Shown here in pieces: positions 18,776 to 46,209 of a stretch of DNA of 64,000 nt. Within the stretch, counting starts at the first letter, position 1; every line of letters starts with the position of its first letter. Position numbers and translations under genes: made by a program. The DNA lies in NCBI RefSeq assembly GCF_036670015.1, contig NZ_CP137636.1, positions 1,838,501 through 1,902,500 on the forward strand. The letters are read 5' to 3'. The notes under the pieces are model-generated. The model ran no database searches, was not told where the DNA came from, and saw only the letters and a program-made list of their open reading frames with translations. This DNA is from Niallia sp. XMNu-256 (GTDB lineage: Bacteria; Bacillota; Bacilli; Bacillales; Cytobacillaceae).

Positions 18776-18815
18776 GCCTTCAACTGAAACAATTTTAAAT
18801 AAGGAGGATTTTGGA

Positions 18816-19997
18816 ATGTCAAAGAAAAATCATACAGAAGTCGCTATTATTGGTGGGGGGATTGTCGGTTGTGCGATCGCTTATTATGTTGCAAAATCAG
18901 GGATCGATTGTATGTTAATCGAAAAAAATGATATTGCAAGCGGCACCTCCTCACGCTGTGATGGAAACGTTACAATTGTGGATAAAGACCCTGGGTTTGA
19001 TAGTTTAATGTCTTGGAAAAGTCAGGAATTGATGATTGAATTGAGCCATGAACTGGATTTGCCATTTGAATATCGAGCACTTGGCAGTTTGCTTGTTTGT
19101 GAAAATGATAGAGAAATGGAAGCGGCGAAAGAATGGGTGGACATTCAAAATGCTGCTGGCTTGAAATTCAAATTACTCGATCGAGAGGATCTTCGGCAAG
19201 AATCCCCTTACTTTGCAGATGATATTCCAGGCGGGTTAGAATGTGAAACGGACTCACTTATCAATCCATATCTATTTTGCTACTCGCTAATAGAGAAGGC
19301 AAAGCAGTATGGACTTCAATTGCAAACCCAATCGGAAGTCATAAATATTACTAAGAATGATTATTTTACTATTGAAACGTCAAATGGAACCTTTACGGCA
19401 AAGAAAGTGGTCAATGCGGCTGGCGTTTGGGCACCTTTCATCGGAAAAATGCTTGAACTTGATATCCCAATTATTCCAAGAAAAGGACATATTATGGTCG
19501 GGGCCAGACAAAAGCCGGTCATGATGCGAAACGTCATGGAATTTGGTTACTTGATGAACAAATTTGGCCGAGAGCGAATTGCCGATGAAAGAACGGAGAA
19601 ACACGGTGTCGCTTTAGTGCTTGAGCCGACGGAAAGCCAGAATTTCTTACTCGGAAGCAGCCGCCAATTCGTCGGGTATGATGGAAGAATTGATATCAAT
19701 GTAGTGGAAACCATGGCAAGAAGAGCGATGCGTTTCTATCCGAAATTGAATGATTTCACGATGATCCGTGCGTATACGGGTTTTAGACCATGGACATCCG
19801 ATCATTTGCCAATCGTTTCAGAAGTTGATGAAATTCCTGGGTATTTCATTGCTGCAGGGCATGAAGGGGATGGAATCAGTTTAGCGACCGTTACAGGGAA
19901 ATTAATTGACGAATTGATTCGCGGGGTCTCTGAAACAATTATTCCAACAACCCCATTACGATATGATCGTTTTGCTAAAAAGCCTGTTTTACAATGA
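18816..19997 (+). CDS. DAO-family FAD-dependent amino/imino acid dehydrogenase (HcnC-like / beta subunit)
   Basis: Glycine oxidase/D-amino-acid-oxidase fold: EVAIIGGGIVGCAIAYYVAK near the start, catalytic-domain features VNAAGVWAPFIGKM and a final GYFIAAGHEGDGISLATVTGK. Length 393. AAGGAGGA lies 7 bases before ATG 18816. Together with the three upstream genes it forms a heteromeric membrane-linked or cytosolic dehydrogenase like D-hydroxyproline dehydrogenase or hydrogen cyanide synthase. In Bacillaceae, cyanide production is not established for such operons, and an amino-acid catabolic role is more likely. The stop codon TGA is part of a dispersed repeat starting TGAAACATGGGG. Confidence 0.85.
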   Translation: MSKKNHTEVAIIGGGIVGCAIAYYVAKSGIDCMLIEKNDIASGTSSRCDGNVTIVDKDPGFDSLMSWKSQELMIELSHELDLPFEYRALGSLLVCENDREMEAAKEWVDIQNAAGLKFKLLDREDLRQESPYFADDIPGGLECETDSLINPYLFCYSLIEKAKQYGLQLQTQSEVINITKNDYFTIETSNGTFTAKKVVNAAGVWAPFIGKMLELDIPIIPRKGHIMVGARQKPVMMRNVMEFGYLMNKFGRERIADERTEKHGVALVLEPTESQNFLLGSSRQFVGYDGRIDINVVETMARRAMRFYPKLNDFTMIRAYTGFRPWTSDHLPIVSEVDEIPGYFIAAGHEGDGISLATVTGKLIDELIRGVSETIIPTTPLRYDRFAKKPVLQ

Positions 19998-26898: not shown

Positions 26899-27942
26899 TT
26901 ATATGTTTATAAAAGGTAGGGTCGTATCAAGCTCACCTCTGACCTGTTTGATGCTAATCTTTTCTCCACTAAGCCATCGATCAAAATCAAAGATAACCGG
27001 CCGTCTGTCTCCACCAAGGGCAAACCAGGTTTTTCTACTATTCGGGAAATAACCCGCTGTATGCAAGGTTCCCGCCCATGTTCCATACTTTTTTGAGAAT
27101 ACCCCTTTGTCCGTACCGTTCATCAGTTGAAAAGCGGTGTTGGCATCTAGAGAATGATTTTCCTGACGCTTTATTGCTTGATATCTTTGGAGAGAGTCGT
27201 CAATACGGTAACGATTCTCATGAGTTAATATTTCAAAGTGATTGGTACAGATATTGGCCTGGTGGATGATCACTTCTCTTGGAGAGGCTTCGACAACGAT
27301 AGACTTTCCGGTTTGATCAAGCAGCACGTAGCTGAACGAACGACGATGAGGAATTTCTTTCAGAAGTGAAGTGGCTTCCTCAACATTGGCGCATGTTTCT
27401 AAAACCATCCGTCCAATCATATTGCAAATAAACCCGCTATCTGATCTCACACGATTGATGAGGTTATATCCCATCGTTAATCCTTTTTCGTTCATCCCAT
27501 CTGTACGCCCTGTTATTTGCATAGATGGACCCATCGTTGCATAGCCCTGGTCTGTCGGTTGATAGAGAACATATCGACCTTCATAGGAGAGGGGATCCTG
27601 ATCATAGTTTCGCATAAGAAAATCGGTATTTGTGAAAATGGAGCAACCACTTTTCCCATATTCAAGATAATAGCCTCCAAATTGAAGAATGGTGTCGTCC
27701 ATCTTCATATTTAAAGAATCTGACAAACCTATTAACTCATCCCAAATTCCGGGAGCATAGGAAAGAATCATGTTTTTAACTTCTGTTTCATCAATCGAAT
27801 AATTGTATTTTATGGATGGCTTGCTCCAAAACTTTTCTCGATTTGCAAGAAGACGAGAATCTTTTAGTAACCCACCTTGCTTATAGCCAAAGTCATAATG
27901 ATTTCCTCGAAACTGAATGACATCACTATATACATTTATCAT
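26899..27942 (-). CDS. C45-family autoproteolytic acyltransferase/hydrolase, copy 1
   Basis: 347 residues. N-terminal-nucleophile hydrolase of the isopenicillin-N acyltransferase (C45) family: the predicted nucleophile lies in GKSGCSIFT (Cys100), where the precursor would be cleaved, followed by MRNYDQDP, and NEKGLTMGYNLINR further on. Members hydrolyse or transfer acyl groups on amides. ATG 27942 is preferred over TTG 27945 because GGAGG is then 7 bases away. About 87% identical to the protein at 42152-43195; both are on the minus strand and bracket the amine-oxygenase island. A natural substrate cannot be named. Confidence 0.8.
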   Translation of the reverse strand: MINVYSDVIQFRGNHYDFGYKQGGLLKDSRLLANREKFWSKPSIKYNYSIDETEVKNMILSYAPGIWDELIGLSDSLNMKMDDTILQFGGYYLEYGKSGCSIFTNTDFLMRNYDQDPLSYEGRYVLYQPTDQGYATMGPSMQITGRTDGMNEKGLTMGYNLINRVRSDSGFICNMIGRMVLETCANVEEATSLLKEIPHRRSFSYVLLDQTGKSIVVEASPREVIIHQANICTNHFEILTHENRYRIDDSLQRYQAIKRQENHSLDANTAFQLMNGTDKGVFSKKYGTWAGTLHTAGYFPNSRKTWFALGGDRRPVIFDFDRWLSGEKISIKQVRGELDTTLPFINI

Positions 27943-28388
27943 CAATTTTCCTCCAGTTACCGTCCGGTAAAGAAATTTTACAAGACGAAGGGAAGAAAAT
28001 CAAAATATAGAGTGTCTTCACAGAAAGGATCTTATAATGGAAAACATCATTACAGTGATCCTGCTGAATTCTGGGTTTATATGCTTAATGTAAAGTGGTT
28101 ACAGTTGTTAACCATAAATCAAGTGTTATAAAAAATAAGGGCGGATCTTATGTTTCGAACTGCGACAAGAGATCCGTCTTTTTGTGGTTAATCGTGTCTA
28201 TATGAAACATCCATTACGCCAATTGATTATTTGGTAGTATAATATAGAAAAATAGAAGAACTTGGAGCGGTTATTATAAGGCTGAATTTAATACTATTTT
28301 AAGAAAAGATGACAGAAATAGTAATGGAACATCTACTACTAGATTTGATGGCAGTAGATTAAGAGATATGTAAGGAGGTTAGGTTAAT
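27943..28388. other. intergenic region with terminator repeat
   Basis: The first 85 bases resemble the upstream region of the second C45 gene, so the duplication extends past the coding sequence. A terminator-like hairpin lies at 28143-28184. No gene is supported. Confidence 0.5.
28143..28184 (+). terminator. terminator hairpin, repeat copy 2
   Basis: GGATCTTATGTTTCG ... CAAGAGATCC and a T-rich tail. Nearly identical to 15984-16024. Confidence 0.65.
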
Positions 28389-31158: not shown

Positions 31159-31875
31159 TTAGTTCATAAGTTGTTTTATTTGCAAATAAGTTCTGGAATA
31201 ATATAGATGCTCTTCCATCGCTTTTTTAGCATTGATGTCATCTTTTTCAATAATACACTCAATCAAATCTATTAAACCGATTAAAATAAATTTTTTCTCT
31301 TCTTCTTGAATATTAGGTGTCCGTTGGTGATACGTCTTAATAATTGCAGTCATGATGGCTTCTGTTAAATGATTATATGTACATTTTGCAAGTAGAACAT
31401 GTACAGAGCTATCAATAGCTAACATTTCTTCTACTGAAAGATTTTTGGTACGAATATCAGACAAACATTTCTCTAAATAAAGTAGGTCTTTGTCTGTTCT
31501 TCTTAATGCAGCTAATCCAGCGGCAGGGATTTCAATTAGCTTTCTTAATTCAAAAATATCAGGATGTGTGATTGTTTTTGAATGGAGAGAGAGCATGATT
31601 AATTCATAAATGTTGTTGCTGACTTTTTCTGGTAAGAAATCTCTCACTTTATAACCACCTACTTGACCGTTAAAAGGCTCAATCACCTTTTGGCTTGTCA
31701 AGTACATAAAGGCTTCTTTCATGGTCGGCCTGCTCACACCAAATTGTTTGGCAAGGCTCAGTTGTGATGGTAGAGGATCACCTGGCTTAAACTTACCTTC
31801 CACAATCATCTGACGAATGGAATTGGCAATTTGTTCTGGGATGGATAATAGTTCAACCTCACTAGACCATAACAT
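31159..31875 (-). CDS. FadR-subfamily GntR transcriptional regulator
   Basis: Winged-helix DNA-binding domain at the start (PEQIANSIRQMIVEGKFKPG, then LAKQFGVSRPTMKEAFMYL) followed by an all-helical FCD effector domain of about 150 residues. It is divergent from the M24-HyuAB genes and is very likely their regulator. FCD domains bind small organic acids or metal, so the inducer would be a pathway metabolite. ATG 31875 follows GAAGG; a TTG at 31881 with AAGGAG upstream is an alternative start. Confidence 0.88.
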   Translation of the reverse strand: MLWSSEVELLSIPEQIANSIRQMIVEGKFKPGDPLPSQLSLAKQFGVSRPTMKEAFMYLTSQKVIEPFNGQVGGYKVRDFLPEKVSNNIYELIMLSLHSKTITHPDIFELRKLIEIPAAGLAALRRTDKDLLYLEKCLSDIRTKNLSVEEMLAIDSSVHVLLAKCTYNHLTEAIMTAIIKTYHQRTPNIQEEEKKFILIGLIDLIECIIEKDDINAKKAMEEHLYYSRTYLQIKQLMN

Positions 31876-31997
31876 ATACAACCTTCACACTCCTTATTAT
31901 GATTCGATTATTAGAATGATCTTATGACTTATACACAATTACACAAGGCCGTTTAACTACAAATAATAGAATGTTCGCTTTCTTTCATCCTCCCAGG

Positions 31998-32014
31998 TGT
32001 AAAAATTTTTTACA
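31998..32014. promoter_or_regulatory. candidate GntR operator
   Basis: TGTAAAAATTTTTTACA is a perfect 17-base palindrome in the divergent control region between the regulator and the M24 gene. GntR-family proteins bind such odd-length palindromes. It lies 122 bases from the regulator start. Confidence 0.45.
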
Positions 32015-32226
32015 ATCGATTCGATAGGGTGCAAAGTTTTCTTACAATAAAACGGGTTGCTTTAAGACTTAACTTTCTGTAAATTTAAAACATAACAACG
32101 AGGTGGTAGAAACTAGAGTTAAAATATGAATGATTTACTTCTAGGAAACCACTATGGTCAAATTATTCTGAATATAATTATTTTTCTATTAATAACATTA
32201 TTAATTTTATAGGAGAGGTGTTTGTT

Positions 32227-33399
32227 ATGTCAACTATCCAATCAATTGAAAGTAATAAAAAAGAAATTATGAATCAACGCTGGAACAGGCTTGAAAAAGA
32301 AATGGAAGCATCAGGCTTAGATGCCGTGATAATTTATGGAAAAGGGATAATTACACAATATGGAAATTTATATTACTTTGGAGGGTATTACCCGATATTA
32401 AGACACGGCTTTGTTATCAAAATAAAGGGACAAGAGCCGATTGTTTACTACAATACAAGAGCCGATTATTATTTAGCAAAAGAAAAAGGGACGATAAACG
32501 ATGTGCGTTATGTTGGAACTGGGGATGTGATTCAAGCAGAAGATCCGCTGCTAGTTGAAATTACACAAGTAATTAATGAAACATTACCTAAAAAAATTGG
32601 TGTTGTCGGTCTGAAAGAAAGTATGAATATTAAACAGTATGAGTACTTAATGAATCATATAAAAGGTGAAGTGGTAGATGGTACAGCCATGATCGCTAAA
32701 ATAAAAAGTGTTAAATCTCCAGAAGAAATAGAAATGATTAGACTTTCATTTGATCTTGCTGAGAAAAGTTTTGCAGCTTTTGAAAAAGCGATCCAGCCAG
32801 GAAAAACATGTGCAGAAATTGCTGGTGAAGTTGAAAAGATTGCACGGGGAAATGGGGCCATCGACACATTAGTTTTTATTGAGGAAGGACCATATTTCCT
32901 GCGTAAGCCGACAAATACAACCATCAGTGAAAATGCCCTTGTCACCTGTTATGTGGAATTAATCGATGAAAATGGATATTGGGTTGAAAAGGGCGCTATC
33001 TTTGCAGTTGGAGAGATCAGTGAAGAAATGAAAGCGCATGCAGATGCTTGTGTTCAAGCGATGGAAGAGGTGAAAAAGGTAATAAAACCGGGCAACACCG
33101 TATCTGATCTTGCGAATGCGATTCATCAGCATATCAATCATCTTAACGTCAAAGTCGGAATCTGGCATGGACATGGGGTAGGTGTCGACCATGACTTACC
33201 TGTTATTTCAGATAACGGGACAGATGTGATTGAAGAGGGAATGGTTCTAAGTGTTCATCCAAATTTCGCTAATGAAAAAGAAGAATTCGGTGCAAGTATT
33301 GCGGATGTGTTTATCGTCCAGGAGAACGGTGCTGAATCGTTAAGTAAACTTCCTTATATGACTTATCTAGCGCAAAAGGAGAGTGAAAGAATTGGATAA
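32227..33399 (+). CDS. M24-family (creatinase/Xaa-Pro dipeptidase-like) hydrolase
   Basis: 390 residues with the pita-bread fold: amino-terminal RNase-H-like domain and carboxy-terminal domain with HGHGVGVDHDLPVI and EGMVLSVHPNF. The two Asp that normally bind metal (in D-x-x-G-Y ... D) appear replaced: the region reads CYVELIDENGYWVEKGAIFAVG. This resembles metal-free members such as creatinase, which hydrolyse C-N bonds of amidino compounds, rather than aminopeptidases. ATG 32227 is chosen, 9 bases after AGGAGAGG; the open frame begins at GTG 32218. Its stop overlaps the HyuA start. Confidence 0.75.
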   Translation: MSTIQSIESNKKEIMNQRWNRLEKEMEASGLDAVIIYGKGIITQYGNLYYFGGYYPILRHGFVIKIKGQEPIVYYNTRADYYLAKEKGTINDVRYVGTGDVIQAEDPLLVEITQVINETLPKKIGVVGLKESMNIKQYEYLMNHIKGEVVDGTAMIAKIKSVKSPEEIEMIRLSFDLAEKSFAAFEKAIQPGKTCAEIAGEVEKIARGNGAIDTLVFIEEGPYFLRKPTNTTISENALVTCYVELIDENGYWVEKGAIFAVGEISEEMKAHADACVQAMEEVKKVIKPGNTVSDLANAIHQHINHLNVKVGIWHGHGVGVDHDLPVISDNGTDVIEEGMVLSVHPNFANEKEEFGASIADVFIVQENGAESLSKLPYMTYLAQKESERIG

Positions 33400-35521
33400 A
33401 TTTACAATTGGCATTGACGTTGGTGGTACATTTACAGATTTATTATTGATTAATATGAATACAAAAGAACAGATAATTGATAAAACCTCCTCCACACCAG
33501 CAGATCCATCAATCGGTGTAATAAATGGACTTAGTAATCTCGCTCAAAAGATAGGAGTTACAACTCAGGAACTATTGGAGAATACAAGTTTAATCGTACA
33601 TGGTACAACGGTTACAACAAATGCTGTATTAACAAATAGAGGAGCAAAGACAGGATTATTAACGACAAAAGGCTTTCGTGATGTTTTGCAGATGAGAAGA
33701 GGGGTTAGAAGTAAACAACATCTTTACAATAATAAATACAAGGCTCCCGATCCATTAGTGACACGGGACTTAGTTGTCGGCATTGATGAACGGACGGATG
33801 CAGATGGAAAAATAATCAAAGGGGTTAAAGAGCAAGAAATCATTGAAGCATTAGATTGGTTTAAGGAAGAAGGGGTCGAATCCATTGCAATTTGTTATAT
33901 GCATTCTTACGCCAATCCAGAAAATGAAGTGATGACGAAACAAATCGTAGAAAAATATATTCCTGAAGCGTATGTCACCATATCAACGGATGTTTCCTCC
34001 ATTATTCGTTTGTACAACCGAGTTAGCACATCTGCCATGAATGCTTATGTAGGCCCCATTTTAAACACGTACATGGATCAGTTAATGGGAAAACTTGAAT
34101 CAAAAGGCTTTACGAATGGTGAGCTCTTAATCATGCAATCAAATGGCGGTGTTACAAATCCTGTCACGGTTTCTAAATTACCAGCTACTACCGTATTATC
34201 TGGTCCAGCGGCAGGGCCTGTGTCTGGAAGCGCATTTGCTAAAGCGTCTGGATTTGATAAAGCTATCGTTGTTGACATGGGAGGAACTTCGTTTGAGGCA
34301 TCCATTATAGAAGATGGTGAAGTCAATATCGGAAAAGAGGGGGAAATTAACCGTAATTTAATTTCCTTGCCAATGGTATCGATTCATACCATTGGATCGG
34401 GTGGGGGAAGTGTTGCTTGGATTGACTCTGGTGGTTTACTACAAGTTGGTCCGCAAAGTGCAGGAGCCTCGCCTGGTCCAGCATGTTATGGACGAGGGGG
34501 ACAATTGCCGACTTGTTCGGATGCTAATTTGCTATTAGGATATTTGAATCCAGGCTTTTTTCTGGGCGGAGGCATGTCACTAGATCTTGATTTGGCCACA
34601 AAGGCTGTGAATCAACATATCGCAGTTCCTTTAAATATGAGCGTTGAAGAAGCTGCTAAGGGAATCTATCAAATTTCCAATTTAAATATGGCTAATGGGA
34701 TTAAAGAGGTTACCATTCAAAATGGACAAGATCCTCGAAACTTCCCATTGGTTGTAGCCGGCGGTGCTGGGCCGATCCATGCGGCTATGATTGCAAGAGA
34801 ACTTGAAATTTCGGAGATCATTATCCCAACATTTTCATCTGTACTATGTGCAGTTGGGATGCTTGCCTCACAATTACGACATGATTATGTGAGAAGTTTC
34901 CACAAAACATGGGATGCTGCTCACTTTACAGACATCGTGTCTATATTGGCCGACGATAGAGAGGAAGGAACACAAGCATTAATCGCTGAAGGAGTTTCCA
35001 AAGAGAAACAAATGATAAAGATCGGGCTAGATATGAGGTATGTTGGACAGCACTACGAAGTGACGATTGAAGTAGACGAGGATATTATTTTAACTAATGA
35101 CAAGGAATTAGTAGAAAATGAGTTTCATAGAGAACATGAAAAATTATTTGGTTTTGACTTAAGAGGACACGAAATAGAGATTATCAATATTCGGTTATCA
35201 TGTCGTGGGGATTTCGTACAATTTTCACCTAGAATCATTGAATCAATGAATCCAGACGAGGAACTTTTAGTGAAGCAATATCGACACATGTTCGAACCTG
35301 TCCAAAAAACAATGGTAAAGGCTCCAGTCTTTGATGGGGATCATATGAAGGCAGGCGCATATATAGAAGGTCCAGCTATTGTGGAATTAACAACAACGAC
35401 CATTATTATTCCAAGTGAATTTGAAATGAAATTAGATATGAATGGGAATTTTATCATGGTCGACACAGCCTCTATTGTGAAACATTTAAACTTGCCATTT
35501 GTTACAACAAAAATTAACTAA
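33392..35521 (+). CDS. hydantoinase/oxoprolinase A subunit (HyuA-like)
   Basis: About 709 residues. ATP-binding actin-like fold with FTIGIDVGGTFTDLLLI at the start and HGTTVTTNAVLTNRGAKTGL. The middle has VVDMGGTSFEASIIEDGE and IGSGGGSVAWID. This is the ATP-dependent subunit of N-methylhydantoinase, 5-oxoprolinase or related carboxylases. TTG 33392 is the best start, 8 bases after AAGGAGAG, overlapping the M24 stop by 8 bases (TTGGATAA). It acts with the HyuB-like product. Substrate is likely a cyclic amide or similar; inferred from family only. Confidence 0.88.
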   Translation: MDKFTIGIDVGGTFTDLLLINMNTKEQIIDKTSSTPADPSIGVINGLSNLAQKIGVTTQELLENTSLIVHGTTVTTNAVLTNRGAKTGLLTTKGFRDVLQMRRGVRSKQHLYNNKYKAPDPLVTRDLVVGIDERTDADGKIIKGVKEQEIIEALDWFKEEGVESIAICYMHSYANPENEVMTKQIVEKYIPEAYVTISTDVSSIIRLYNRVSTSAMNAYVGPILNTYMDQLMGKLESKGFTNGELLIMQSNGGVTNPVTVSKLPATTVLSGPAAGPVSGSAFAKASGFDKAIVVDMGGTSFEASIIEDGEVNIGKEGEINRNLISLPMVSIHTIGSGGGSVAWIDSGGLLQVGPQSAGASPGPACYGRGGQLPTCSDANLLLGYLNPGFFLGGGMSLDLDLATKAVNQHIAVPLNMSVEEAAKGIYQISNLNMANGIKEVTIQNGQDPRNFPLVVAGGAGPIHAAMIARELEISEIIIPTFSSVLCAVGMLASQLRHDYVRSFHKTWDAAHFTDIVSILADDREEGTQALIAEGVSKEKQMIKIGLDMRYVGQHYEVTIEVDEDIILTNDKELVENEFHREHEKLFGFDLRGHEIEIINIRLSCRGDFVQFSPRIIESMNPDEELLVKQYRHMFEPVQKTMVKAPVFDGDHMKAGAYIEGPAIVELTTTTIIIPSEFEMKLDMNGNFIMVDTASIVKHLNLPFVTTKIN

Positions 35522-35533
35522 GGAGGGGAAAAA

Positions 35534-37246
35534 ATGGATTCCATCATCGTATCCGTCATATCCAATCGTTTAAGAGCAATCGGAAGACAAATGGGAGCGG
35601 TTATTGAAAGAAGTGCACATTCGCCTTTACTTGTGGAGGGACGAGACTTCTCTTTAGGTATCTACACAGCATCTGGAGTATTAATTGAACAGACAGAGTA
35701 TATTCCAATTTTGGGTTATGCTGCTGCGCCTGGAGTCAAGGCAGTCGTAGAATATTTCAAGGGAGATGTTCATGAGGGAGATGTATTTCTTCATAATGAT
35801 CCATTTACAGGAGGTAATCAAAACTCAGACTGGAAAGTGATGAAACCTGTATTTTTTGAAGGAAAATTATTTGGCTGGACTGTTATTACTGCTCATCAGG
35901 CCGATGTAGGCGGAGCCGTACCAGGATCCTATAATCCATATGCTACCGATCTATGGCAGGAAGGCATTCGGATCACCCCTGTAAGAATATTTAGCAAAGG
36001 GAAAAAAATAAAGGATGTTTGGGATCTTATAATGGGAAATATTAGACTTCCGGTCGTTGGGGACGATATTCTCGCTATGATCGGCGGATGTACCGTAGGG
36101 GAAAAAGAACTCGTCAAACTCATTGATCAGTATAGTATGAATACCGTTAACGAGGCGATTGCTGAAATCTTTGATTCTACTGAAAAAATGGCAAAGGTAA
36201 TTATTAATCAGATTCCAAACGGGGTTTACGATGGGGAATGGTTAGTAATGGATGATGGTTTTGATCATGAAGCAGAGATGAAGATCAAAGTAAGAGTAAC
36301 CGTGGAAGATGATCATATGCATTTTGATTTTAGCGGGACATCTCCACAGACGAAAGGCTATGTAAATGCCCCATTGCCTGTAACGATTTCTTCTGTCATG
36401 ATTTCCTTTTTCATGCTGACGGAACAAGAGATCGCTCATAATGAGGCAATTCAAAGATGCATCAGTGTCCATGTTCCTGAAGGGACGATGTTAAACCCTA
36501 AATTCCCAGCTGCATCAGGTTTTGGTAACCACTTAAGTGATCAAATTTGTTCCGCTATTTTCATCGCACTTTCTAAAGCGTTACCTGAGCAAGTGACTGC
36601 AGGCTGGAATTCATTGTTATGTGCCATTATAAATGGAACAGATGAAAAAAGGCAAAAACCTTTTGTCGATATTCTTTTGAATGGAAGTAAAGGGGGAAGT
36701 GGTGGAACGAAAGGTGCGGATGGATATGATCATATTGGTTTAATTGCTTCAGGAGGTGCTTTGGCGGCTCAGGATCCTGAAATGTTTGAGCTCACATTGC
36801 CTGTTACTCTTCAAAAATATGAATATGCCAAAGATTCTTGTGGTGCTGGTGAATGGAGGGGAGGTTTAGGAGTAGAAGTTGAATTTTCCATCAATGCGGA
36901 TGGTGTTCAAGCGAGTGTGTTTGGCGACGGAGGGAACGAAGCCACCGCGGCTCCTGGTATTCTTGGAGGAACAAATGGTGCGGTGAACACGATTGTCCTT
37001 GAATATCCAGATGGTCGAACCTACAAAAGCTTTACGAAAGATTTGATTTCCGATATTCCAAAAGGGACAATTTACAAACAGCTTGCAGGCGGAGGCGGAG
37101 GTTACGGAGATCCCAAAAAACGTCCAGCAGATATCGTAGCCAAAGAGGTCCGATATGGATATATTTCAAAGGAATACGCGAAAGAAAAATATGGGGTTGT
37201 GATTTCTAATGAGAAGAAGGGTGAAATCGTAGAGATATTAAGATGA
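35534..37246 (+). CDS. hydantoinase/oxoprolinase B subunit (HyuB-like)
   Basis: 570 residues with the family blocks IERSAHSPLLVEGRDFSLGI, HNDPFTGGNQNSDW and GGGGGYGDPKKRPADIVAKE at the end. It partners the A subunit in ATP-driven opening of a ring or carboxylation. AAGGAGGGG lies well placed before the ATG, 12 bases after hyuA. The stop TGA is followed at once by a hairpin (AGTGAAACTTC ... GTGGGGGGCATCCCCCAC) that belongs to the palindromic repeat family and probably terminates or attenuates the transcript before the Rieske genes. Confidence 0.9.
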   Translation: MDSIIVSVISNRLRAIGRQMGAVIERSAHSPLLVEGRDFSLGIYTASGVLIEQTEYIPILGYAAAPGVKAVVEYFKGDVHEGDVFLHNDPFTGGNQNSDWKVMKPVFFEGKLFGWTVITAHQADVGGAVPGSYNPYATDLWQEGIRITPVRIFSKGKKIKDVWDLIMGNIRLPVVGDDILAMIGGCTVGEKELVKLIDQYSMNTVNEAIAEIFDSTEKMAKVIINQIPNGVYDGEWLVMDDGFDHEAEMKIKVRVTVEDDHMHFDFSGTSPQTKGYVNAPLPVTISSVMISFFMLTEQEIAHNEAIQRCISVHVPEGTMLNPKFPAASGFGNHLSDQICSAIFIALSKALPEQVTAGWNSLLCAIINGTDEKRQKPFVDILLNGSKGGSGGTKGADGYDHIGLIASGGALAAQDPEMFELTLPVTLQKYEYAKDSCGAGEWRGGLGVEVEFSINADGVQASVFGDGGNEATAAPGILGGTNGAVNTIVLEYPDGRTYKSFTKDLISDIPKGTIYKQLAGGGGGYGDPKKRPADIVAKEVRYGYISKEYAKEKYGVVISNEKKGEIVEILR

Positions 37247-37290
37247 AGTGAAACTTCTTTCAGTTAGTGGGGGGCATCCCCCACTGACTG
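37247..37290 (-). repeat. solo right end of the palindromic repeat, acting as a hairpin
   Basis: AGTGAAACTTC, then AGTTAGTGGGGG-GCAT-CCCCCACTGACT. This is the inverse of the right end seen at 3298, 15700 and 23610, with a shorter loop. It begins directly after the HyuB stop codon. Confidence 0.6.
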
Positions 37291-37438
37291 AGGGTTAATC
37301 ACGCAGAGCATGATAAAATTCTTGTCTAACTGATTTAATGTTGAAGTATTCTCTATTGATAGATCAAGGTTAAATAATTAATTCGTTTAATTTACAGAAT
37401 ATTATGTCTGTTTTAACAAAACGATAGGGGGATGAATC

Positions 37439-38755
37439 ATGAATTGGGAATATTTTGTGCAAGAAGATAGAGTACACCAGTCGGTTTATACAGATCCAAA
37501 CATATTTCAGGAGGAAATCGTTAAAATCTTTGGTCACAATTGGGTCTATTTGGCTCATGAAAGTGAAATTCCAAATCCGAATGATTTTAAAACAGGCTAT
37601 TTAGGAAAAAGGCCGATTATTATTACTCGGGACAGAAATGGAGACATTCACTCTTTTCTGAATCGGTGTATGCATAGGGGAGCAACGATTTGCCGGGTCG
37701 AGAAAGGTTCAGCAAAGCAATTTACATGCCCTTATCATGGATGGGCCTACAGCAATGATGGCCGTTTGGCAGGAGTACCTTGGCCAAAAGGATACGGGCC
37801 CAACTTTAACAAGTCAGAATTTGATTTAATCGACGTCCGGGTTGAAAGTTATAAAGGATTTATCTTTGGGACCTTGAATCAAGAGGCTCCTGATTTAATC
37901 GATTATTTAGGCAATGCAAGCCCATTACTCGATCAATGGATTGAGCATAATGGAAGTCCGGAGAAACTGATCGTGCGAAACAATGCTCACAGAATGGTAT
38001 TAAATGGAAATTGGAAGTTTGTATACGATAATGCAGGGGACGGATACCATGTCGCCTTTTCCCATCGTTCCTTATTAGCCATCGACCAGCGCTATGAGCA
38101 AGAAAAAGACAATGAAGATAACGGAAAGGATATGGTGTACTTTAAAAATGGTCCCGATGAAGGGCCGATGTATGTCCAGTATCTCGGAAATGGTCATATC
38201 TTTTTAGATCAGCGCCCTGCCTATGGAAATAAAAAAACTGGTGATCTATGGAAACAGCAGCGCCCGCAACCTGGTAGGGAATATTTTGAAGGAAAGTTAA
38301 TCAAGGAATATGGAGAGGAAAAAGCTTATCAATTTCTTGATCGAGCCGTTGGGGCACAGATGAATTTATCCATTTTTCCAAACTTGCTTCTCATAGGGAA
38401 TCAAATCCAAGTCATTGAACCCATTGCAGTCGACAAAACCCAAATTTCCTGGTACGCCACCACCGTGGAAGATTTACCAGATGAAATCAATCAATTACGG
38501 ATGAGATCCCAAGAGGATTTTCCTGCCTTTGGTGAACCGGATGATGTAACTAATTTTGCTGAATGTCACAGGGGAGTGTCGATCCCAGAAGTGGAGTGGG
38601 TCATGTTAAATCGGGGCTTTGATAATCAACATCAATGGAATGTAGATGATAAAGGAATTATTACGGCTCCAGTAACAGACGAAACTCCGATGAGAGGATA
38701 TTTCCAAGAGTGGAAAAAGAGGTTAAGCGCGAGTAAGAAGGAGTTGAAAGTATGA
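37439..38755 (+). CDS. Rieske non-heme iron oxygenase, large (alpha) subunit
   Basis: 438 residues. Rieske [2Fe-2S] ligands CMH (Cys77, His79) and CPYH (Cys97, His100). The catalytic domain shows DGYHVAFSH, giving the bridging Asp201 and iron ligands His204 and His209. Such subunits form the catalytic core that adds oxygen to an aromatic ring or removes an N-/O-substituent. A ribosome site with GGGGGATG precedes the ATG. It overlaps the small-subunit gene by 4 bases. Its closest pathway analogue by neighbourhood is aniline dioxygenase (AtdA3/TdnA1); substrate is not proven. No reductase gene follows. Confidence 0.9.
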   Translation: MNWEYFVQEDRVHQSVYTDPNIFQEEIVKIFGHNWVYLAHESEIPNPNDFKTGYLGKRPIIITRDRNGDIHSFLNRCMHRGATICRVEKGSAKQFTCPYHGWAYSNDGRLAGVPWPKGYGPNFNKSEFDLIDVRVESYKGFIFGTLNQEAPDLIDYLGNASPLLDQWIEHNGSPEKLIVRNNAHRMVLNGNWKFVYDNAGDGYHVAFSHRSLLAIDQRYEQEKDNEDNGKDMVYFKNGPDEGPMYVQYLGNGHIFLDQRPAYGNKKTGDLWKQQRPQPGREYFEGKLIKEYGEEKAYQFLDRAVGAQMNLSIFPNLLLIGNQIQVIEPIAVDKTQISWYATTVEDLPDEINQLRMRSQEDFPAFGEPDDVTNFAECHRGVSIPEVEWVMLNRGFDNQHQWNVDDKGIITAPVTDETPMRGYFQEWKKRLSASKKELKV

Positions 38756-39348
38756 GAAATGAGGGAAGTCTAGACACGGCTTATTATTCTTACTATATAG
38801 ATGATGAATTTTATGATCAACTTACACAAGATATTGAAAGTTTTTATGGTGATTTTAAGCCCTTACAAGATCGGAGCATAGAGGATGAATGCAGGAGGTT
38901 GATCTACAAAGAGGCCCGATTGCTTGACGAGTTGAAGTTAGATGAAGTGTTGGACCTATATAGCAATCAATGTTTATATTGGATTCCGATTACACCTGGG
39001 GGTGGTGACCCAAGGAAAGAAGTATCCCACGCTTTTGATGATCGAAGACGGTTAGAAGACCGGATTTACAGATTGAAAACAGGCTATGCCCATTCCCAGA
39101 TTCCGATGTCAAGAACGCGTAGAATGCTGACCAATATCGAATTTTCACAAGGAAATCACGTTAATGAGGTGCGAGTCCGTGCTAATTTTATCCTCTATGA
39201 GTTACGGACAGGAACCGTAAGAAGCTATGCAGGATGGTACGGATATAAGGTAATAAAAGAAAATCAAGAATGGAAAAAAGTCGACCTCAAGATGGTCAAT
39301 TTAATCGATTGTGATCAAGGTCATGAGAATTTGACTTTTATGCTCTAA
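38752..39348 (+). CDS. Rieske oxygenase small (beta) subunit
   Basis: 198 residues of the SnoaL/NTF2-like cone fold typical of ring-hydroxylating beta subunits: EARLLDELKLDEVLDLYSNQ, then YWIPITPG, and RTRRMLTNIEF. The beta subunit stabilises the alpha3beta3 hexamer. ATGA overlap with the alpha gene ensures coupled expression. The length fits AtdA4/TdnA2-like proteins. Confidence 0.85.
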   Translation: MRNEGSLDTAYYSYYIDDEFYDQLTQDIESFYGDFKPLQDRSIEDECRRLIYKEARLLDELKLDEVLDLYSNQCLYWIPITPGGGDPRKEVSHAFDDRRRLEDRIYRLKTGYAHSQIPMSRTRRMLTNIEFSQGNHVNEVRVRANFILYELRTGTVRSYAGWYGYKVIKENQEWKKVDLKMVNLIDCDQGHENLTFML

Positions 39349-39393
39349 TGGATCCATTCCTATACAAGGCGGTGTCTAGAAATGGAGGGTGAA

Positions 39394-39660
39394 ATGAACG
39401 ATTCCTTTTTTCAAAAAGAAAGTTATGAATCTATGAAAAAGAAATATGAAAAAATGCTCGAACGGCAGCAGCCCTATGAAAAGTTAGTTGACCTTATGAA
39501 GCAAATTAATGTATGGGATTATAGCATCTATGACGAGACCCCTGGCGACGATTGGGTAGCTCTTGATCGAAAAGATTACGAACAAATCGTTACCCTCATG
39601 CAGGAGTTTTATCAGATTAGTCCCTGGAAGGAAAAGATTGAAAGAAGAATAGATTCATAA
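39394..39660 (+). CDS. unknown 88-residue protein of the Rieske cluster
   Basis: Start ATG 39394 with GGAGGGTG 5 bases upstream; the open frame begins at 39382. Acidic and helical, with Trp/Tyr-rich VWDYSIYDETPGDDWVALDR in the middle flanked by two amphipathic helices. No Cys, no signal peptide, no family I recognise. It sits between the oxygenase beta subunit and the amidotransferase on the same strand, so it should take part in the same pathway, perhaps as an oxygenase or ligase accessory factor. That role is a guess. Confidence 0.65.
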   Translation: MNDSFFQKESYESMKKKYEKMLERQQPYEKLVDLMKQINVWDYSIYDETPGDDWVALDRKDYEQIVTLMQEFYQISPWKEKIERRIDS

Positions 39661-39690
39661 AAAAAGTGTAACGCAGAAGAAGGTGTTGAT

Positions 39691-40470
39691 ATGAAACCGT
39701 TAGTTGGAATTGTGGGGATTGTTTACGATCTAGAAACACCCTTGAATCATGAGGTTAGAAAAGCTGGGGCTGATCGCACAGGATTTACTACTGAACATAC
39801 TCTTTACACAAACCATTGTTATCATAAGCTTTTTCATCAATTAGATTGCCATTTGCTTGTGATTTCTCCTGAAAGTGATCCGGAAATAATAACCCGTTTG
39901 GATATGCTGTTGATTCCCGGCGGCCCTGATATTAATCCGGCAATTTATGGTCAAGAACTCCATCCAGAAACACAATATGATCCTCTTAGAGATGTTTTTG
40001 AAAAAAAAGCGATCGAGATTGCGATCGAAAAAAAGATTCCTCTATTAGGTGTATGCAGGGGGTTTCAGATGATCAATGCTGCATTGGGAGGGACGCTTAC
40101 ACAACATTTGCCTGAGTGGTCTACGGACGTTCAGCATCGTCCGGAGGTAGGGCCTCAACTTCATTCACACACCGTTACAATGGAGGGATGGCTAAAGGGA
40201 TTGTTTGGAAATGAAATGAAAGTAAACTCCTGGCATCATCAAGGAATCGATATATTAGCACCAGAACTGGAGGCTTTGGCGTGGTCCTCAGAGGGACTGA
40301 TTGAAGCCTATCAATCTACCGATCATTTGTCTCCTATTTTTGCGGTTCAATGGCATCCAGAACTTCTGCAGGATAAGGAAAGTCTTTTACTAGTATCTCG
40401 TTTTTTAGAACAAACATTATTCAATAAAAAACAATCCAATCTATCATATAAAGGGAGCTGGTACTTTTGA
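39691..40470 (+). CDS. class-I glutamine amidotransferase-like gamma-glutamyl hydrolase (PuuD/AtdA2-like)
   Basis: 259 residues with the Cys nucleophile in LLGVCRGFQMINAALGG and the catalytic His-x-Glu in WHPELL. This is the GATase1 class seen in PuuD (gamma-glutamyl-GABA hydrolase) and in AtdA2/TdnT of aniline clusters, where it is thought to break excess gamma-glutamyl-anilide. It lies directly before the GS-like ligase, overlapping it by 4 bases, an arrangement shared with those pathways. Start ATG 39691 follows GAAGGTG. Confidence 0.85.
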   Translation: MKPLVGIVGIVYDLETPLNHEVRKAGADRTGFTTEHTLYTNHCYHKLFHQLDCHLLVISPESDPEIITRLDMLLIPGGPDINPAIYGQELHPETQYDPLRDVFEKKAIEIAIEKKIPLLGVCRGFQMINAALGGTLTQHLPEWSTDVQHRPEVGPQLHSHTVTMEGWLKGLFGNEMKVNSWHHQGIDILAPELEALAWSSEGLIEAYQSTDHLSPIFAVQWHPELLQDKESLLLVSRFLEQTLFNKKQSNLSYKGSWYF

Positions 40471-41975
40471 CTAAGACGGTGAGCATAGGTAAAAAAGGTT
40501 TTATTGACATGCATGGGTTATGGACGGATGAGCAAAAAGAAGCAGCTGAGCGAATTAAAGCAACGATAAAGGAACAAGATATTCGCCTAATTCGTGTAGC
40601 ATGGACAGACCAACACGGGATCTCTAGAGCTAAAGCGATGACGGTTGACGGGTTTCTAGGTGTTCTCGAGAGTGGTTTGGAATTTAACACGGGTCCTCTT
40701 TTCTTTGATAGCGGAAGTGATATCGTCTTTAATCCATTTATGGAAGGCGGAGGATTTGATCTTGAGGAAATGAATGGATGCCCTAATTACCGACTTGTCC
40801 CTGACCCATTAACATTTAAAATTTTACCTTGGGCACCGAATACCGCATGGATTTTAACGGATGCTTATTTAAAAAGCGGAAAACCACTTCCGTTTGATAG
40901 CCGAGGAATTTTACGAAAAGCCATAAATGACTTTAGAAATGCTGGATATGATTTTATTGCAGGAATTGAAGTGGAGTGGACGCTAACGAAAGTAGAGGAT
41001 GAGCGATTACGTCCAGAACTCTTGGGGGCACCTGGTTTCCCGGCCGAAACTCCTTTAGTTATGCCTGCAGCAAGAGGATATCAGTATCATTTGGAGGCAC
41101 ATCTTGATGAGATGAATGAGATTATTCATATCATTGCGGACAATCTTCAAAAGTTGGGACTTCCTTTAAGTACGATTGAAGATGAGTGGGGACCGAGTCA
41201 ATTGGAATTTACGTTTAGTCCGATGTCCGGTTTGGAGGCTGCGGATGCGATGCTTCTTTTTAGAACGGCCGTGAAACAAATTTGTAAACGTCATGGTTAT
41301 ATTGCCTCGTTCATGTGCCGACCCCAATTACCGGGATTCTTCTCTTCTGGTTGGCATTTGCACCAATCGATTCGAAGTTTAGAAACAGGTGAAAATCTGT
41401 TAAATCCGACTAATGACGGAGATGTAATTTCTGAGATTGGTAAACATTATATTGGAGGATTATTAAAACATGCACGTGCAGCAAGTGTCTTTACAACACC
41501 TACGATCAATGGATATAAACGTCTCAAACCAAATTCTCTTGCTCCAGATCGAGCTGGCTGGGGAGATGATAACAGAGGCACCATGATTCGAGTGATCGGC
41601 TCACCTGGTGAAGGAAATACCCGTTTTGAAAATCGGATCGGTGAACCCGCAGCAAATCCATATTTATATCTAGCTTCTCAAGTAATGGCTGGGCTGCAAG
41701 GCATTCAAACACAATGCGATCCAGGGATCCCAAGCAGAGAGGCTTATAATGAAGATCGCGAACCACTGCCGCGTAACTTAATGGAAGCGGTTGAAGCTTT
41801 AAAACAAGATGACTTGTATTCTAGCAAAATGGGAGACTTATTTATTAACTATATTTCGAGAATGAAAGAAAATGAATATACACGTTACGAAAGGTTTATT
41901 CAAGATCACAATATTGAGAATTCTAATGACATTGTGACGGAATGGGAACAGAGAGAGTATTTTGAAATTTTCTAA
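40467..41975 (+). CDS. glutamine-synthetase-like gamma-glutamylamide ligase (AtdA1/PuuA-like)
   Basis: 502 residues from TTG 40467, with AAGGGAGC 9 bases upstream. Glutamine synthetase fold: beta-grasp segment RLIRVAWTDQHGISRAKAM, then AGIEVEWTL, SGWHLHQSI and NRIGEPAANPYLYLAS, equivalent to the ATP, glutamate and metal sites. The amino-terminal extension and length resemble AtdA1/TdnQ and PuuA rather than housekeeping GlnA. Predicted reaction: ATP-dependent joining of glutamate to an amine, giving a gamma-glutamylamide for the Rieske oxygenase. Amine unknown. Confidence 0.85.
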   Translation: MTKTVSIGKKGFIDMHGLWTDEQKEAAERIKATIKEQDIRLIRVAWTDQHGISRAKAMTVDGFLGVLESGLEFNTGPLFFDSGSDIVFNPFMEGGGFDLEEMNGCPNYRLVPDPLTFKILPWAPNTAWILTDAYLKSGKPLPFDSRGILRKAINDFRNAGYDFIAGIEVEWTLTKVEDERLRPELLGAPGFPAETPLVMPAARGYQYHLEAHLDEMNEIIHIIADNLQKLGLPLSTIEDEWGPSQLEFTFSPMSGLEAADAMLLFRTAVKQICKRHGYIASFMCRPQLPGFFSSGWHLHQSIRSLETGENLLNPTNDGDVISEIGKHYIGGLLKHARAASVFTTPTINGYKRLKPNSLAPDRAGWGDDNRGTMIRVIGSPGEGNTRFENRIGEPAANPYLYLASQVMAGLQGIQTQCDPGIPSREAYNEDREPLPRNLMEAVEALKQDDLYSSKMGDLFINYISRMKENEYTRYERFIQDHNIENSNDIVTEWEQREYFEIF

Positions 41976-41987
41976 TTAATTTTAATG

Positions 41988-42014
41988 CAACACGGGGACG
42001 GTTCTCGCGTTTCA
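41988..42014 (+). repeat. 30-bp dispersed unit
   Basis: AACACGGGGACGGTTCTCGC followed by GTTTCA, just after the ligase gene and before the composite repeat. Confidence 0.6.
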
Positions 42015-42027
42015 AAATAGAGACTGC

Positions 42028-42150
42028 GTCACAGTGACGCCCCGAAAAATCTCGTTTCATAAAATGTTTCACAGATTGAGTCGAATAGGCCATACCTGGT
42101 GATAACAGGTGTGGCCTATTTTGATTGTTTGTGAAACGTCCCCATGTTTC
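42028..42150 (+). repeat. composite repeat, internally deleted copy
   Basis: GTCACAGTGACGCCCCGAAA at the left, the stem AGGCCATACCTGG ... CAGGTGTGGCCT in the middle, and GAAACGTCCCCATGTTTC at the right. It lacks the 100-bp central-right portion found in the copies at 30821 and 62354. Confidence 0.7.
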
Positions 42151-42151
42151 T

Positions 42152-43195
42152 TTACATATTTCCAAAGGGTATGGTAGTATCAAGCTCGCCTCTCACCCGC
42201 TTAACATTGATCTTTTCTCCAATAAGCCATTGTTCAAAATCAAAGATAACAGGTAACCTGTCTCCTCCAAGGGCAAACCAGGCTTTTCTACTATTCGGGA
42301 AATAACCAGCTGTATGCAAAGTTCCCGCCCATGCTCTATATTTTTTTGAGAATACACCTTTTTCCGTGCCATTCATCAATTGAAAAGCGGTTTTAGCATT
42401 TAATAAATGATTTTCCTGGCGTTTTATTGCTTGATATCTTTGGAGAGAATCCTCCATCTGGTAACGATTCTCATGAGTTAATACTTTAAAGTGGTTGGTA
42501 CAAATATTGGACTGATAGACAATTACTTCTCTTGGAGAGGCTTCGACTACGATGGACTTTCCGGTTTGATCAAGCAGCACATAGCTGAATGAACGACGAT
42601 GGGGAATATCTTTCAGAAGTGAAGTGGCTTCTTCAACAGTGGCACACGTTTCTAACACAATCCGTCCAATCATATTGCATATAAACCCGGAATCTGATCT
42701 TACACGATTGATTAGGTTATATCCCATAGCTAATCCTTTTTCGTTCATTCCATCTGTACGCCCAGTGATTTGCATAGATGGACCTATCGTTGCATAGCCC
42801 TCATCTGTGGGATGATAGAGAACATACCGACCTTCATAGGAGAGGGGATCCTGATCATAATTTCGAATAAGAAATTCGGTACCTGTGAATATGGAACAAC
42901 CGCTCTTCCCATATTCAAGATAATAGCCGCCAAATTGAAGGATGGTTTCGCTCATATTCATTTTCAAAGAATCTGATAAACCCATTAACTCAGCCCAGAT
43001 TCCAGGAGCAAAGGAAAGAATCATGTTTTTAACTTCTGTTTCATCTATCGAATAATTATATTTAATGGATGGCTTGCTCCAAAACTTTTCTCGATTTGCA
43101 AGAATACGAGAGTCTTTAAGTAGCTCACCTTGCCTATAGCCAAAATCATAATGATTTCCTCGAAACTGAATAACATCGCTGTATACGTTTATCAC
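42152..43195 (-). CDS. C45-family autoproteolytic acyltransferase/hydrolase, copy 2
   Basis: Paralogue of 26899-27942, about 87% identical over its full length, with the same nucleophile context GKSGCSIFT and MNEKGLAMGYNLINR. Start: GTG 43195 is the equivalent of the ATG in copy 1 and lies 7 bases after GGAGG; an ATG is 3 bases further upstream. It is convergent with the amine ligase. Because the family cleaves amides, it could act on a pathway intermediate such as a glutamylamide or N-acyl amine, but no motif proves this. Confidence 0.8.
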   Translation of the reverse strand: MINVYSDVIQFRGNHYDFGYRQGELLKDSRILANREKFWSKPSIKYNYSIDETEVKNMILSFAPGIWAELMGLSDSLKMNMSETILQFGGYYLEYGKSGCSIFTGTEFLIRNYDQDPLSYEGRYVLYHPTDEGYATIGPSMQITGRTDGMNEKGLAMGYNLINRVRSDSGFICNMIGRIVLETCATVEEATSLLKDIPHRRSFSYVLLDQTGKSIVVEASPREVIVYQSNICTNHFKVLTHENRYQMEDSLQRYQAIKRQENHLLNAKTAFQLMNGTEKGVFSKKYRAWAGTLHTAGYFPNSRKAWFALGGDRLPVIFDFEQWLIGEKINVKRVRGELDTTIPFGNM

Positions 43196-43317
43196 CATTT
43201 TTCCTCCAGTTTCCGTTCAATAAAGAAATTCTACTAGACGAAGGTTGGGAAATCAAAATATAGAATACTTCACTGCCATTTCCTTCAAAGTAGTAATTCA
43301 ACATCCATTCCAATAAA

Positions 43318-45792: not shown

Positions 45793-46209
45793 ATGAGTGA
45801 TAAAAAAGACGTTCTTGATAAGGGTCCTTTCTTTCATGGTACTAAAGCAGAATTAAGAATTGGAGATCTATTAGAACCACAACACTTATCAAATTACCAA
45901 GATAAGAAATCTAACTATATATATTTTACTGCCACATTAGAAGCTGCTAAATGGGGGGCTGAGTTAGCAGCTTCTGAATTAAAAGAAAGAATTTATATTG
46001 TTGAGCCGTTAGGAGATTTTGAAAATGATCCGAACTTAACAGACAAGAAATTTCCTGGTAATCCAACACGTTCTTATCGGTCTAAATTGCCTTTGAAAAT
46101 AATAGCTGAATTAAGTTCATGGGAAAGGCATACTGATGAAGAGATAAATCATATGCTGTCATCATTAAAGAAGTTACGCGAACAAGGAAAAGCTGTAATA
46201 TATGATTAA
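45793..46209 (+). CDS. arr: NAD+-rifampin ADP-ribosyltransferase (Arr)
   Basis: 138 residues, full length for Arr. It transfers ADP-ribose from NAD+ to rifamycins and so inactivates them. Recognised by FFHGTKAELRIGDLL (His15), SNYIYFTATLEAAKWGAELA, IYIVEPLGDFENDPNLTDKK and FPGNPTRSYRS, which are nearly invariant in the family. It stands alone with a modest ribosome site (AAAAGGATAAGGGG) about 10 bases upstream. Chromosomal arr genes are known in Bacillaceae, so it need not be recently acquired; no mobile element flanks it directly. Confidence 0.92.
   Translation: MSDKKDVLDKGPFFHGTKAELRIGDLLEPQHLSNYQDKKSNYIYFTATLEAAKWGAELAASELKERIYIVEPLGDFENDPNLTDKKFPGNPTRSYRSKLPLKIIAELSSWERHTDEEINHMLSSLKKLREQGKAVIYD

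Follow-up and report, generated by a model that had tools for sequence, protein, structure and literature searches.

Hydrolase genes of the M24-HyuAB type joined to an aniline-type gamma-glutamylation and Rieske oxygenase block in Niallia sp. XMNu-256: a probable two-stage route for aromatic amines

An island of genes located at positions 31159-41975 of a 64,000-nucleotide stretch of the genome of Niallia sp. XMNu-256 (the window; coordinates are window positions throughout) joins two gene blocks. The first encodes an M24-family protein and the subunits HyuA and HyuB of an ATP-dependent lactamase/hydantoinase, the second a Rieske oxygenase, a GATase1 hydrolase and a glutamine synthetase-like (GS-like) ligase, as in aniline-type clusters. 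The reading that we consider probable is a two-stage route, in which the M24-HyuAB module feeds the gamma-glutamylation and dioxygenation of an aromatic amine in a member of the Bacillota. Stage 2, the chemistry of the amine block, is well supported by sequence comparisons, which also give the gene content, family membership, conserved residues, linkage and ring-cleavage genes; the chemistry of M24-HyuAB in stage 1, all reactions in the host, the order of the stages and the substrate are what we infer. The amine part is of a known kind, the M24-HyuAB pairing and the altered hydrolase look new. The features of the island are the following:

31159-31881, minus strand: divergent regulator of the GntR/FCD type (Pfam GntR 55.6 bits, FCD 47 bits)
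32218-33399, plus strand: M24-family protein (creatinase/prolidase fold) with an altered metal site (Pfam M24 91.8 bits)
33383-35521, plus strand: HyuA, subunit A of an ATP-dependent lactamase/hydantoinase (Pfam Hydantoinase_A 314.8 bits)
35534-37246, plus strand: HyuB, subunit B, with a D38-Q96-D99-H121 metal site (Pfam Hydantoinase_B 480.4 bits)
37247-37438, plus strand: 192-bp gap between the two blocks, with a 17-pair hairpin (RNA fold)
37439-38755, plus strand: Rieske oxygenase alpha subunit, aniline-dioxygenase group (Pfam Rieske, Ring_hydroxyl_A)
38752-39348, plus strand: Rieske oxygenase beta subunit (Pfam Ring_hydroxyl_B 91.4 bits)
39382-39660, plus strand: orf92, a small conserved protein of 92 aa (no Pfam match; homologues in like clusters)
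39691-40470, plus strand: GATase1/peptidase C26, putative gamma-glutamylamide hydrolase with an AtdA2/TdnT-like role (Pfam Peptidase_C26 165.4 bits)
40467-41975, plus strand: GS-like gamma-glutamyl-arylamine ligase, with a predicted GoaS/AtdA1 role (best PDB match 8wwu)

The best PDB match of the ligase is 8wwu (NpaA1), which scores 524 bits and is followed by a distinct sequence at 183 bits. NpaA1 is described as glutamylating 1-naphthylamine and anilines, a step required before dioxygenation (PMC11335346). Residues E232, E234, W235, F75 and F86 of NpaA1 (PMC11335346 numbering, shifted by 15 to that of the chain) correspond to E238, E240, W241, F80 and F91 of the window ligase; M81 and V201 are replaced by I86 and Y207. 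E238, E240, F80, F91 and Y207 are invariant in 7 of 7 ligases of the family sample described below, while the W241 position is occupied by Trp, Phe or Leu, Leu being the residue described for AtdA1 (PMC11335346). In an IQ-TREE phylogeny of 22 ligases and 4 distant GS outgroup rows, the 22, which include NpaA1 and the ligases of Delftia, Rhodococcus, Dietzia and Corynebacterium, form one clade (support 100/99), and the window ligase branches with those of Bacillus piscicola and Alteribacillus persepolensis (100/100). PDB match and tree both place the enzyme in the arylamine-glutamylating clade. A tblastn search of plasmids with the ligase matched 47 records; the 30 of 47 listed show 46.1-53.4% identity, and include Delftia, Comamonas, Achromobacter, Variovorax and the Npa cluster of JS3066 (47.5%). 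The ligase of Delftia plasmid pNB8c, encoded in a cluster of the type GS-GAT-Rieske-reductase, is about 50% identical to that of the window. GlnA was considered as an identity for the ligase and rejected (TIGR00653 219.4 versus a cut-off of 429.15), as was PuuA, the gamma-glutamylputrescine synthetase (NF045547 216.2 versus 650); the NpaA1 match also speaks against both.

These data bear on an aliphatic reading, by which the ligase, acting like PuuA or IpuC, would glutamylate an aliphatic amine or polyamine and the Rieske enzyme would oxidise an aliphatic gamma-glutamylamide. The GS-like superfamily is described as including PuuA and isopropylamine-type ligases (PMC11335346), and the PuuA-type model does match with its 216.2 bits; this score is far below the cut-off, NpaA1 reaches 524 bits, the aromatic tunnel residues F80, F91 and W241 are kept, and ring-cleavage genes adjoin relatives of the set. 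Such a reading is accordingly very improbable.

Both Rieske subunits are nearest to those of aniline-type plasmid clusters and fall in their group. A search of plasmids with Rieske alpha returned 126 records, and among the 60 listed 21 rows span 62.4-44.8% identity, the next near-full-length row being at 38.1%; a wider plasmid list contains one partial match (43.5% over 47% of the query). The ligase gene lies in the same cluster as Rieske alpha in all 9 of the plasmid records examined among the 21. In plasmid pn1 of Nostoc sp. UHCC 0926 (L167:9122-12802), genes for Rieske beta, Rieske alpha (62% identical to that of the window) and a GS-like ligase (52%) are found side by side, with no annotation in the table. 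The Rieske alpha tree unites the window with Niallia endozanthoxylica and Bacillus sp. V3B (97/92); its deepest splits, where long outgroup branches meet, are left unsettled. Models of benzoate and anthranilate oxygenases were rejected as identities for Rieske alpha (260 versus a cut-off of 780.95, and 227.5 versus 671.9). A sequence-only reading of this DNA had proposed that an amine is degraded via a gamma-glutamylamide, as in the Atd, Tdn and Dca systems, and the grouping of ligase and oxygenase with aniline-type clusters, not with GlnA, PuuA or benzoate/anthranilate oxygenases, supports it.

With AtdA1-A5, TdnQTA1A2B, DcaQTA1A2B and NpaA1-A5 the window shares a GS-like ligase, a GATase and Rieske alpha and beta genes in one run, and key ligase residues are kept; to JS3066 (Npa) and Delftia pNB8c the ligase is 47.5-50.2% and Rieske alpha 44.8-49.7% identical. 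The amine block shares its chemistry with Atd/Tdn/Dca/Npa; the one classical feature that the cluster lacks is the reductase gene. The window differs from these systems in its Bacillota host, the order alpha-beta-orf92-GAT-GS, the lack of a reductase in the run, the C26-type GATase, orf92 and the joined M24-HyuA-HyuB genes. The window order is shared by Corynebacterium occultum pCOCCU and Dietzia kunjamensis pDK2035-69. In the clusters of Corynebacterium, Dietzia and Rhodococcus gordoniae pDND3A (compare the cad genes of Rhodococcus) orf92 is present in all three and catA is nearby. The actinomycete clusters differ from the window in that the ligase is followed by a 2Fe-2S protein and a FAD reductase; HyuAB has no match in the stretches read, and the ligases are 47-49% identical to that of the window. 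The blocks of B. piscicola and A. persepolensis have all five genes in the window order, with ligases 70-72% and alpha subunits 64-65% identical to those of the window, and no M24-HyuAB beside them in the stretches examined (10 kb upstream in each; 10 and 2.3 kb downstream).

By sequence likeness the GATase is the weakest tie to the classical cluster. Among plasmids it is best matched in C. occultum, where a second gene, of the C26 type (33.5%), is closer to it than the GAT gene beside the ligase. A class-II amidotransferase-like gene follows orf92 in three loci where GATase1 was not seen (L009:10891-11619, L125:1-615, L126:19128-19877), and perhaps replaces it there; Pfam GATase_4 matches the copies in L009 and L126, and the L125 copy, cut by the end of the stretch, was assigned by eye. 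Genes for orf92 are found in 14 clusters including the window, all of the GS-Rieske type, 11 in Bacillota and 3 in Actinomycetota. A profile built from the 14 has no other match among the fetched loci, which include 5 proteobacterial plasmid clusters, the cluster of 1 alphaproteobacterial metagenome-assembled genome (MAG) and 2 Nostoc stretches. Y50, W58, P81, W82 and R89 are invariant in the 13 rows aligned, and the AlphaFold model, of low confidence (pLDDT 67.8), features a long N-terminal helix and a small C-terminal part. The aniline cluster of Rhodococcus is described as made of seven genes, and an orf92-like protein is not named in the parts of PMC11596033 that describe it.

Ring-cleavage genes are found next to several of the related sets. 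L010 (genome G012) encodes a catechol 2,3-dioxygenase (421.9, above the cut-off of 320.2) and meta-pathway-like genes that score under their cut-offs (semialdehyde dehydrogenase-like 624.3 of 693.25; hydratase-like 329.7 of 408.8). L012 (Bacillus sp. EB106) carries genes for an intradiol dioxygenase, a maleylacetate reductase and a thiolase, as well as two CoA transferase genes. The best PDB match of the dioxygenase is PnpC (171 bits), and catechol, chlorocatechol and hydroxyquinol enzymes match too; the reductase scores 348 bits with two structures named as maleylacetate reductases and 433.5 with an iron-containing alcohol dehydrogenase. L011 (Neobacillus kokaensis) likewise has the intradiol dioxygenase and CoA transferase genes. 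The genes of L011 and L012 fit hydroxyquinol cleavage, which would make the amine there one of the aminophenol type; alternatively, a catechol route may operate. A plasmid of Stutzerimonas stutzeri CSW02, a strain which reportedly degrades paracetamol, shows this pairing too, there with a maleylacetate reductase annotated as such. No intradiol dioxygenase is found in the Niallia genome by PF00775, and four catechol 2,3-dioxygenase homologues, 64-84% identical to that of L010, are present; catechol and its meta cleavage are therefore expected in this host. The nearest of the four is found some 91 kb downstream, where L145:6461-12111 (C1 of the Niallia genome, about 1967-1973 kb) contains an operon for phenol hydroxylase, with two Phenol_Hydrox proteins and a Fer2-FAD-NAD reductase, and beside it the catechol 2,3-dioxygenase and a ferredoxin. 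This reductase is a candidate to supply the orphan Rieske oxygenase with electrons.

The genes named by the sequence-only reading are confirmed at the places it gave, and all score above the Pfam cut-offs in a scan of ten proteins covering the run and its flanks; its gene list omitted orf92, between Rieske beta and GATase1. The Rieske motifs it had reported are real (C-x-H-x17-C-x2-H at residues 77-100 and D-x2-H-x4-H at 201-209 of Rieske alpha), and the GATase retains its nucleophile motif (GVCRG at 120). The tight spacing it had described is a property of each half of the run: M24 and HyuA overlap by 17 bp, 12 bp separate HyuA from HyuB, and overlaps of 4 bp occur between Rieske alpha and beta and between GATase and GS. 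It does not extend to the HyuB/Rieske alpha join, where the 192-bp gap folds with -56.1 kcal/mol (z -5.4 versus 200 shuffles); the 17 pairs of the hairpin include G-U pairs, and no T run directly follows the stem. Gap and hairpin suggest that the run may consist of two transcription units, and it is more accurate to speak of two blocks, one M24-HyuA-HyuB, the other alpha-beta-orf92-GAT-GS. Promoter and terminator scans returned chance-level counts (40 versus 39.3 and 9 versus 8.7 expected, respectively).

The distribution of the genes was analyzed in samples of the family (193 genomes, that of the window included), the order (397) and the phylum (398). At thresholds of E 1e-100 for the ligase, 1e-60 for Rieske alpha and 1e-150 for HyuA, the ligase is found in 7 of the 193 family genomes, the six besides the window at 50-64% identity. 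Rieske alpha is found in 13, only 7 of them, the same genomes, at 61% or more; the remaining six have matches of 36% over most of the protein or of 45-49% over about 212 residues. HyuA is found in 11, copies of at least 48% identity (8 in number) being confined to the same 7 genomes, and the others measuring 37-40%. The chance of drawing the same 7 of 193 is about 6e-13, a figure to be read with the proviso that linked genes are not independent draws. The order sample adds two HyuA at 48%, in G286 and G364, both in full sets, and no Rieske or GS relative is found in the stretches around its five next-best HyuA (37-42%). M24-HyuA-HyuB and Rieske/GS genes lie in the same run in all nine linked sets read (window, G003, G004, G012, G111, G142, G143, G286, G364). 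In the phylum sample (ligase threshold E 1e-120) the ligase is found in 1 of 398 genomes, that of the window. A pattern-based scan yielded 74 loci, of which 7 from Bacillaceae and one from an alphaproteobacterial MAG reach 47% identity. The neighbourhood check that the sequence-only reading had proposed thus finds the set conserved in other Bacillaceae, and this recurrence points to more than chance.

The two blocks also occur apart. In Bacillus sp. MM2020_1 (G142) a second copy of M24-HyuA-HyuB, with 82-88% identity to that of the window, is followed by an ATP-binding cassette (ABC) transporter and a GntR gene, with no Rieske gene before the contig end. A similar transporter lies between HyuB and Rieske alpha in N. 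endozanthoxylica and V3B, and a Transp_cyt_pur permease follows HyuB in L009, L010, L012, L125 (G286) and L126; no such transporter is present between the blocks in the window and L011. Separate occurrence and transporter neighbours mark HyuAB as a separable module that sits with uptake genes, and favor an order in which uptake and hydrolysis precede amine oxidation. M24-HyuAB might instead be an independent creatinine/hydantoin or lactam module, a mere neighbour of a separate aniline-type Rieske-GS operon. The gap and hairpin at the join, the M24-HyuAB-ABC operon of MM2020_1, the Rieske-GS blocks devoid of HyuAB, and the sarcosine-oxidase-like and N-carbamoylase-like genes elsewhere in the window are in favor of this view. 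It is nevertheless unlikely, as the 7 of 193 family genomes that have HyuA of this clade are the 7 with close GS and Rieske alpha relatives, and the genes lie in one run in 9 of 9 sets read, across two HyuAB subclades (HyuA about 48% identical), both with Gln in the HyuB metal site.

The ATP motifs of HyuA are intact (DVGGTFTD at 12, DMGGT at 298, GASPGP at 361); motifs of this type have been defined for caprolactamase (PMC8453981). The window proteins share the HyuA/HyuB fold family with CapAB and N-methylhydantoinase, but differ from CapAB in scoring below the caprolactamase cut-offs (HyuA 664.5 of 1000 with the CapA model, HyuB 378.2 of 1000 with the CapB model), in a Gln replacing His99 of CapB, and in the M24 partner. 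The metal ligands of CapB are Asp41, His99, Asp102 and His124, and Ala at any one of them is described as killing activity (PMC8453981). The HyuB equivalents are D38, Q96, D99 and H121, in place of an Asp-His-Asp-His tetrad. The comparison of HyuB began with 62 rows from fetched loci: 20 Gln rows correspond to 10 distinct proteins (stretches with the same gene were merged by eye), 37 His rows to 32 (5 duplicates were removed by blastn), and 5 second-HyuB rows with degenerate sites (SQTQ, AQTQ or AKTQ), which follow neither the Gln nor the His pattern, were left out of the count. Gln is found at the His99 position in 10 of 10 distinct HyuB of the clade, nine linked to Rieske/GS and one being the second copy of MM2020_1; they form two subclades, about 39-40% identical to each other. 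His occupies this position in all 32 of the other distinct HyuB whose three further ligands are intact, as in N-methylhydantoinase. No M24, Rieske, GS or GAT relative lies beside any of these 32, in stretches of 18-20 kb for nine and about 5 kb for the rest. In the HyuA tree the two linked subclades and a HyuA from a Corynebacterium plasmid form one group (100/99), the branching order within which is not settled; with His in the HyuB of Corynebacterium, the Gln may have arisen once or twice.

The M24 protein matches prolidases with 70 bits only, the best chain being 1pv9. At the 1pv9 ligand positions, which we take to be the dinuclear metal ligands D-D-H-E-E of prolidases, it features Y245 (with E247 nearby), E257, H319, H347 and A362; H319 is kept and 4 of the 5 expected ligands are changed, one of the changes being Asp to Glu. 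All six M24 proteins aligned, drawn from both subclades, share E247, E257, H319, H347 and D363. As read from the alignments, the active sites of HyuAB and M24 speak for specialised chemistry over an ordinary lactamase plus aminopeptidase, and the upstream substrate of HyuAB may be hydantoin-like or a lactam.

The sequence-only reading had suggested that HyuAB could act on cyclised 5-oxoproline. In its full form this would make HyuAB a 5-oxoprolinase that recycles glutamate, gamma-glutamylamides or glutamine having cyclised to 5-oxoproline, in one pathway with no upstream stage. HyuA and HyuB do belong to the oxoprolinase/hydantoinase superfamily, and a LamB/YcsF gene (5-oxoprolinase subunit A type) adjoins the set in G286, though none is seen beside the sister set of G364. 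Amine clusters with no HyuAB in the stretches examined (B. piscicola, Alteribacillus, nine plasmid records), the presence of two other LamB/YcsF genes in the genome, and the Gln of HyuB, where all 32 other HyuB that retain the three further ligands have His, make the suggestion quite improbable. A more far-reaching version of the two-stage route is possible, but is advanced only tentatively: M24-HyuAB of this clade would be a new enzyme system dedicated to feeding gamma-glutamylation/Rieske oxidation. Its HyuAB, driven by ATP and remodelled to an Asp-Gln-Asp-His site, and its metal-poor M24 would together release an aromatic amine from a natural product or xenobiotic of the cyclic N-aryl type, and orf92 would be an undescribed component of Gram-positive aniline-type dioxygenases.

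In the two-stage route, HyuA would phosphorylate a cyclic amide, imide or ureide, HyuB would open the ring with its altered metal site, and the metal-poor M24 would break a further C-N bond, freeing the aromatic amine for stage 2. The GS-like ligase would then join L-glutamate to the amine at the expense of ATP. Rieske alpha and beta, receiving electrons from a reductase encoded elsewhere, would dioxygenate the gamma-glutamyl-arylamide at the amine-bearing carbon, and the product would shed the glutamyl amide to give a catechol, opened by the catechol 2,3-dioxygenases encoded elsewhere in the genome. GATase1 would hydrolyse surplus glutamylamide, and orf92 would be an accessory protein.

Several observations weigh against this route. 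No gene in the window names the substrate. The Gln of HyuB removes a ligand essential in caprolactamase, so ring hydrolysis may not be the reaction; the metal ligands of M24 are mostly lost, and hydrolysis by M24 is a guess. Among the ten scanned proteins there is no reductase, though one of the AtdA5/TdnB type belongs to the classical cluster; the best match in the genome to the Delftia reductase (28-36%) resides in the phenol-hydroxylase operon, and for the Corynebacterium FAD reductase the best match is at 32%. All four catechol 2,3-dioxygenase genes are at least 91 kb from the island. Matches of the GATase to plasmid-cluster GATases are short or weak, and its likeness to AtdA2-type GATases is weak. 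Finally, GS and Rieske trees disagree for two relatives, N. endozanthoxylica and Bacillus sp. V3B, which carry more distant ligases; an exchange of ligase and oxygenase seems to have taken place.

Control of the island probably lies with the divergent GntR regulator, likely a local repressor. A GntR-type relative flanks M24 or core genes in L011, L021, L022, L125, L126 and L163, and a search for operators in the gap 31882-32217 revealed short A+T-rich inverted repeats only. Two genes of C45-family acyltransferases (26899-27945 and 42152-43198, minus strand), 87.6% identical over 1124 bp, flank the island as same-strand direct repeats 15 kb apart, and recombination between them could promote loss or amplification of the island. 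They were considered as part of the pathway and set aside as neighbours, because stretches of six relatives contain no C45 match at E 1e-4. The gap that follows the ligase (41976-42151) contains two hairpins and ends that by eye are nearly inverted (GGGGACGGTTCT / GTCCCC type), resembling a small mobile element of the repetitive extragenic palindromic (REP) type. A rifampin ADP-ribosyltransferase (ARR) gene above the NCBIfam cut-off is located at 45793-46209 (plus strand). An M20 gene of the N-carbamoylase/allantoate amidohydrolase type (62693-63928, plus strand) lies about 25 kb away from HyuB and could take part in the breakdown of ureides. Three overlapping open reading frames, two weakly like sarcosine-oxidase alpha and glycine oxidase, span 17191-19997 (plus strand), and what by eye resembles a betaine-type ABC transporter lies nearby.

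The sequence-only reading knew of no described pathway with this full gene set, and none turned up in searches of open-licence literature: no title or abstract listed joins hydantoinase-type genes to aniline-type oxidation, one FluG paper (PMC6478659) holding both words. Other routes are described for a dichloroaniline degrader of the species Bacillus megaterium (PMC4539516), and paracetamol and toluenediamine degraders are described with no GS-like ligase in the accounts given (PMC9420511, PMC7118221). In the literature covered, the hosts described for gamma-glutamylation-dependent amine oxidation are Proteobacteria and Actinomycetota. Genes for this process are now found in Bacillota, in forms branching apart from the plasmid-borne ones, and are coupled here to a hydrolase module whose active site is altered. 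If the two-stage route is true, one locus would lead from a bound aromatic amine to ring cleavage, HyuAB and M24 would perform fresh chemistry, and orf92 may be a missing component of Gram-positive aniline dioxygenases.

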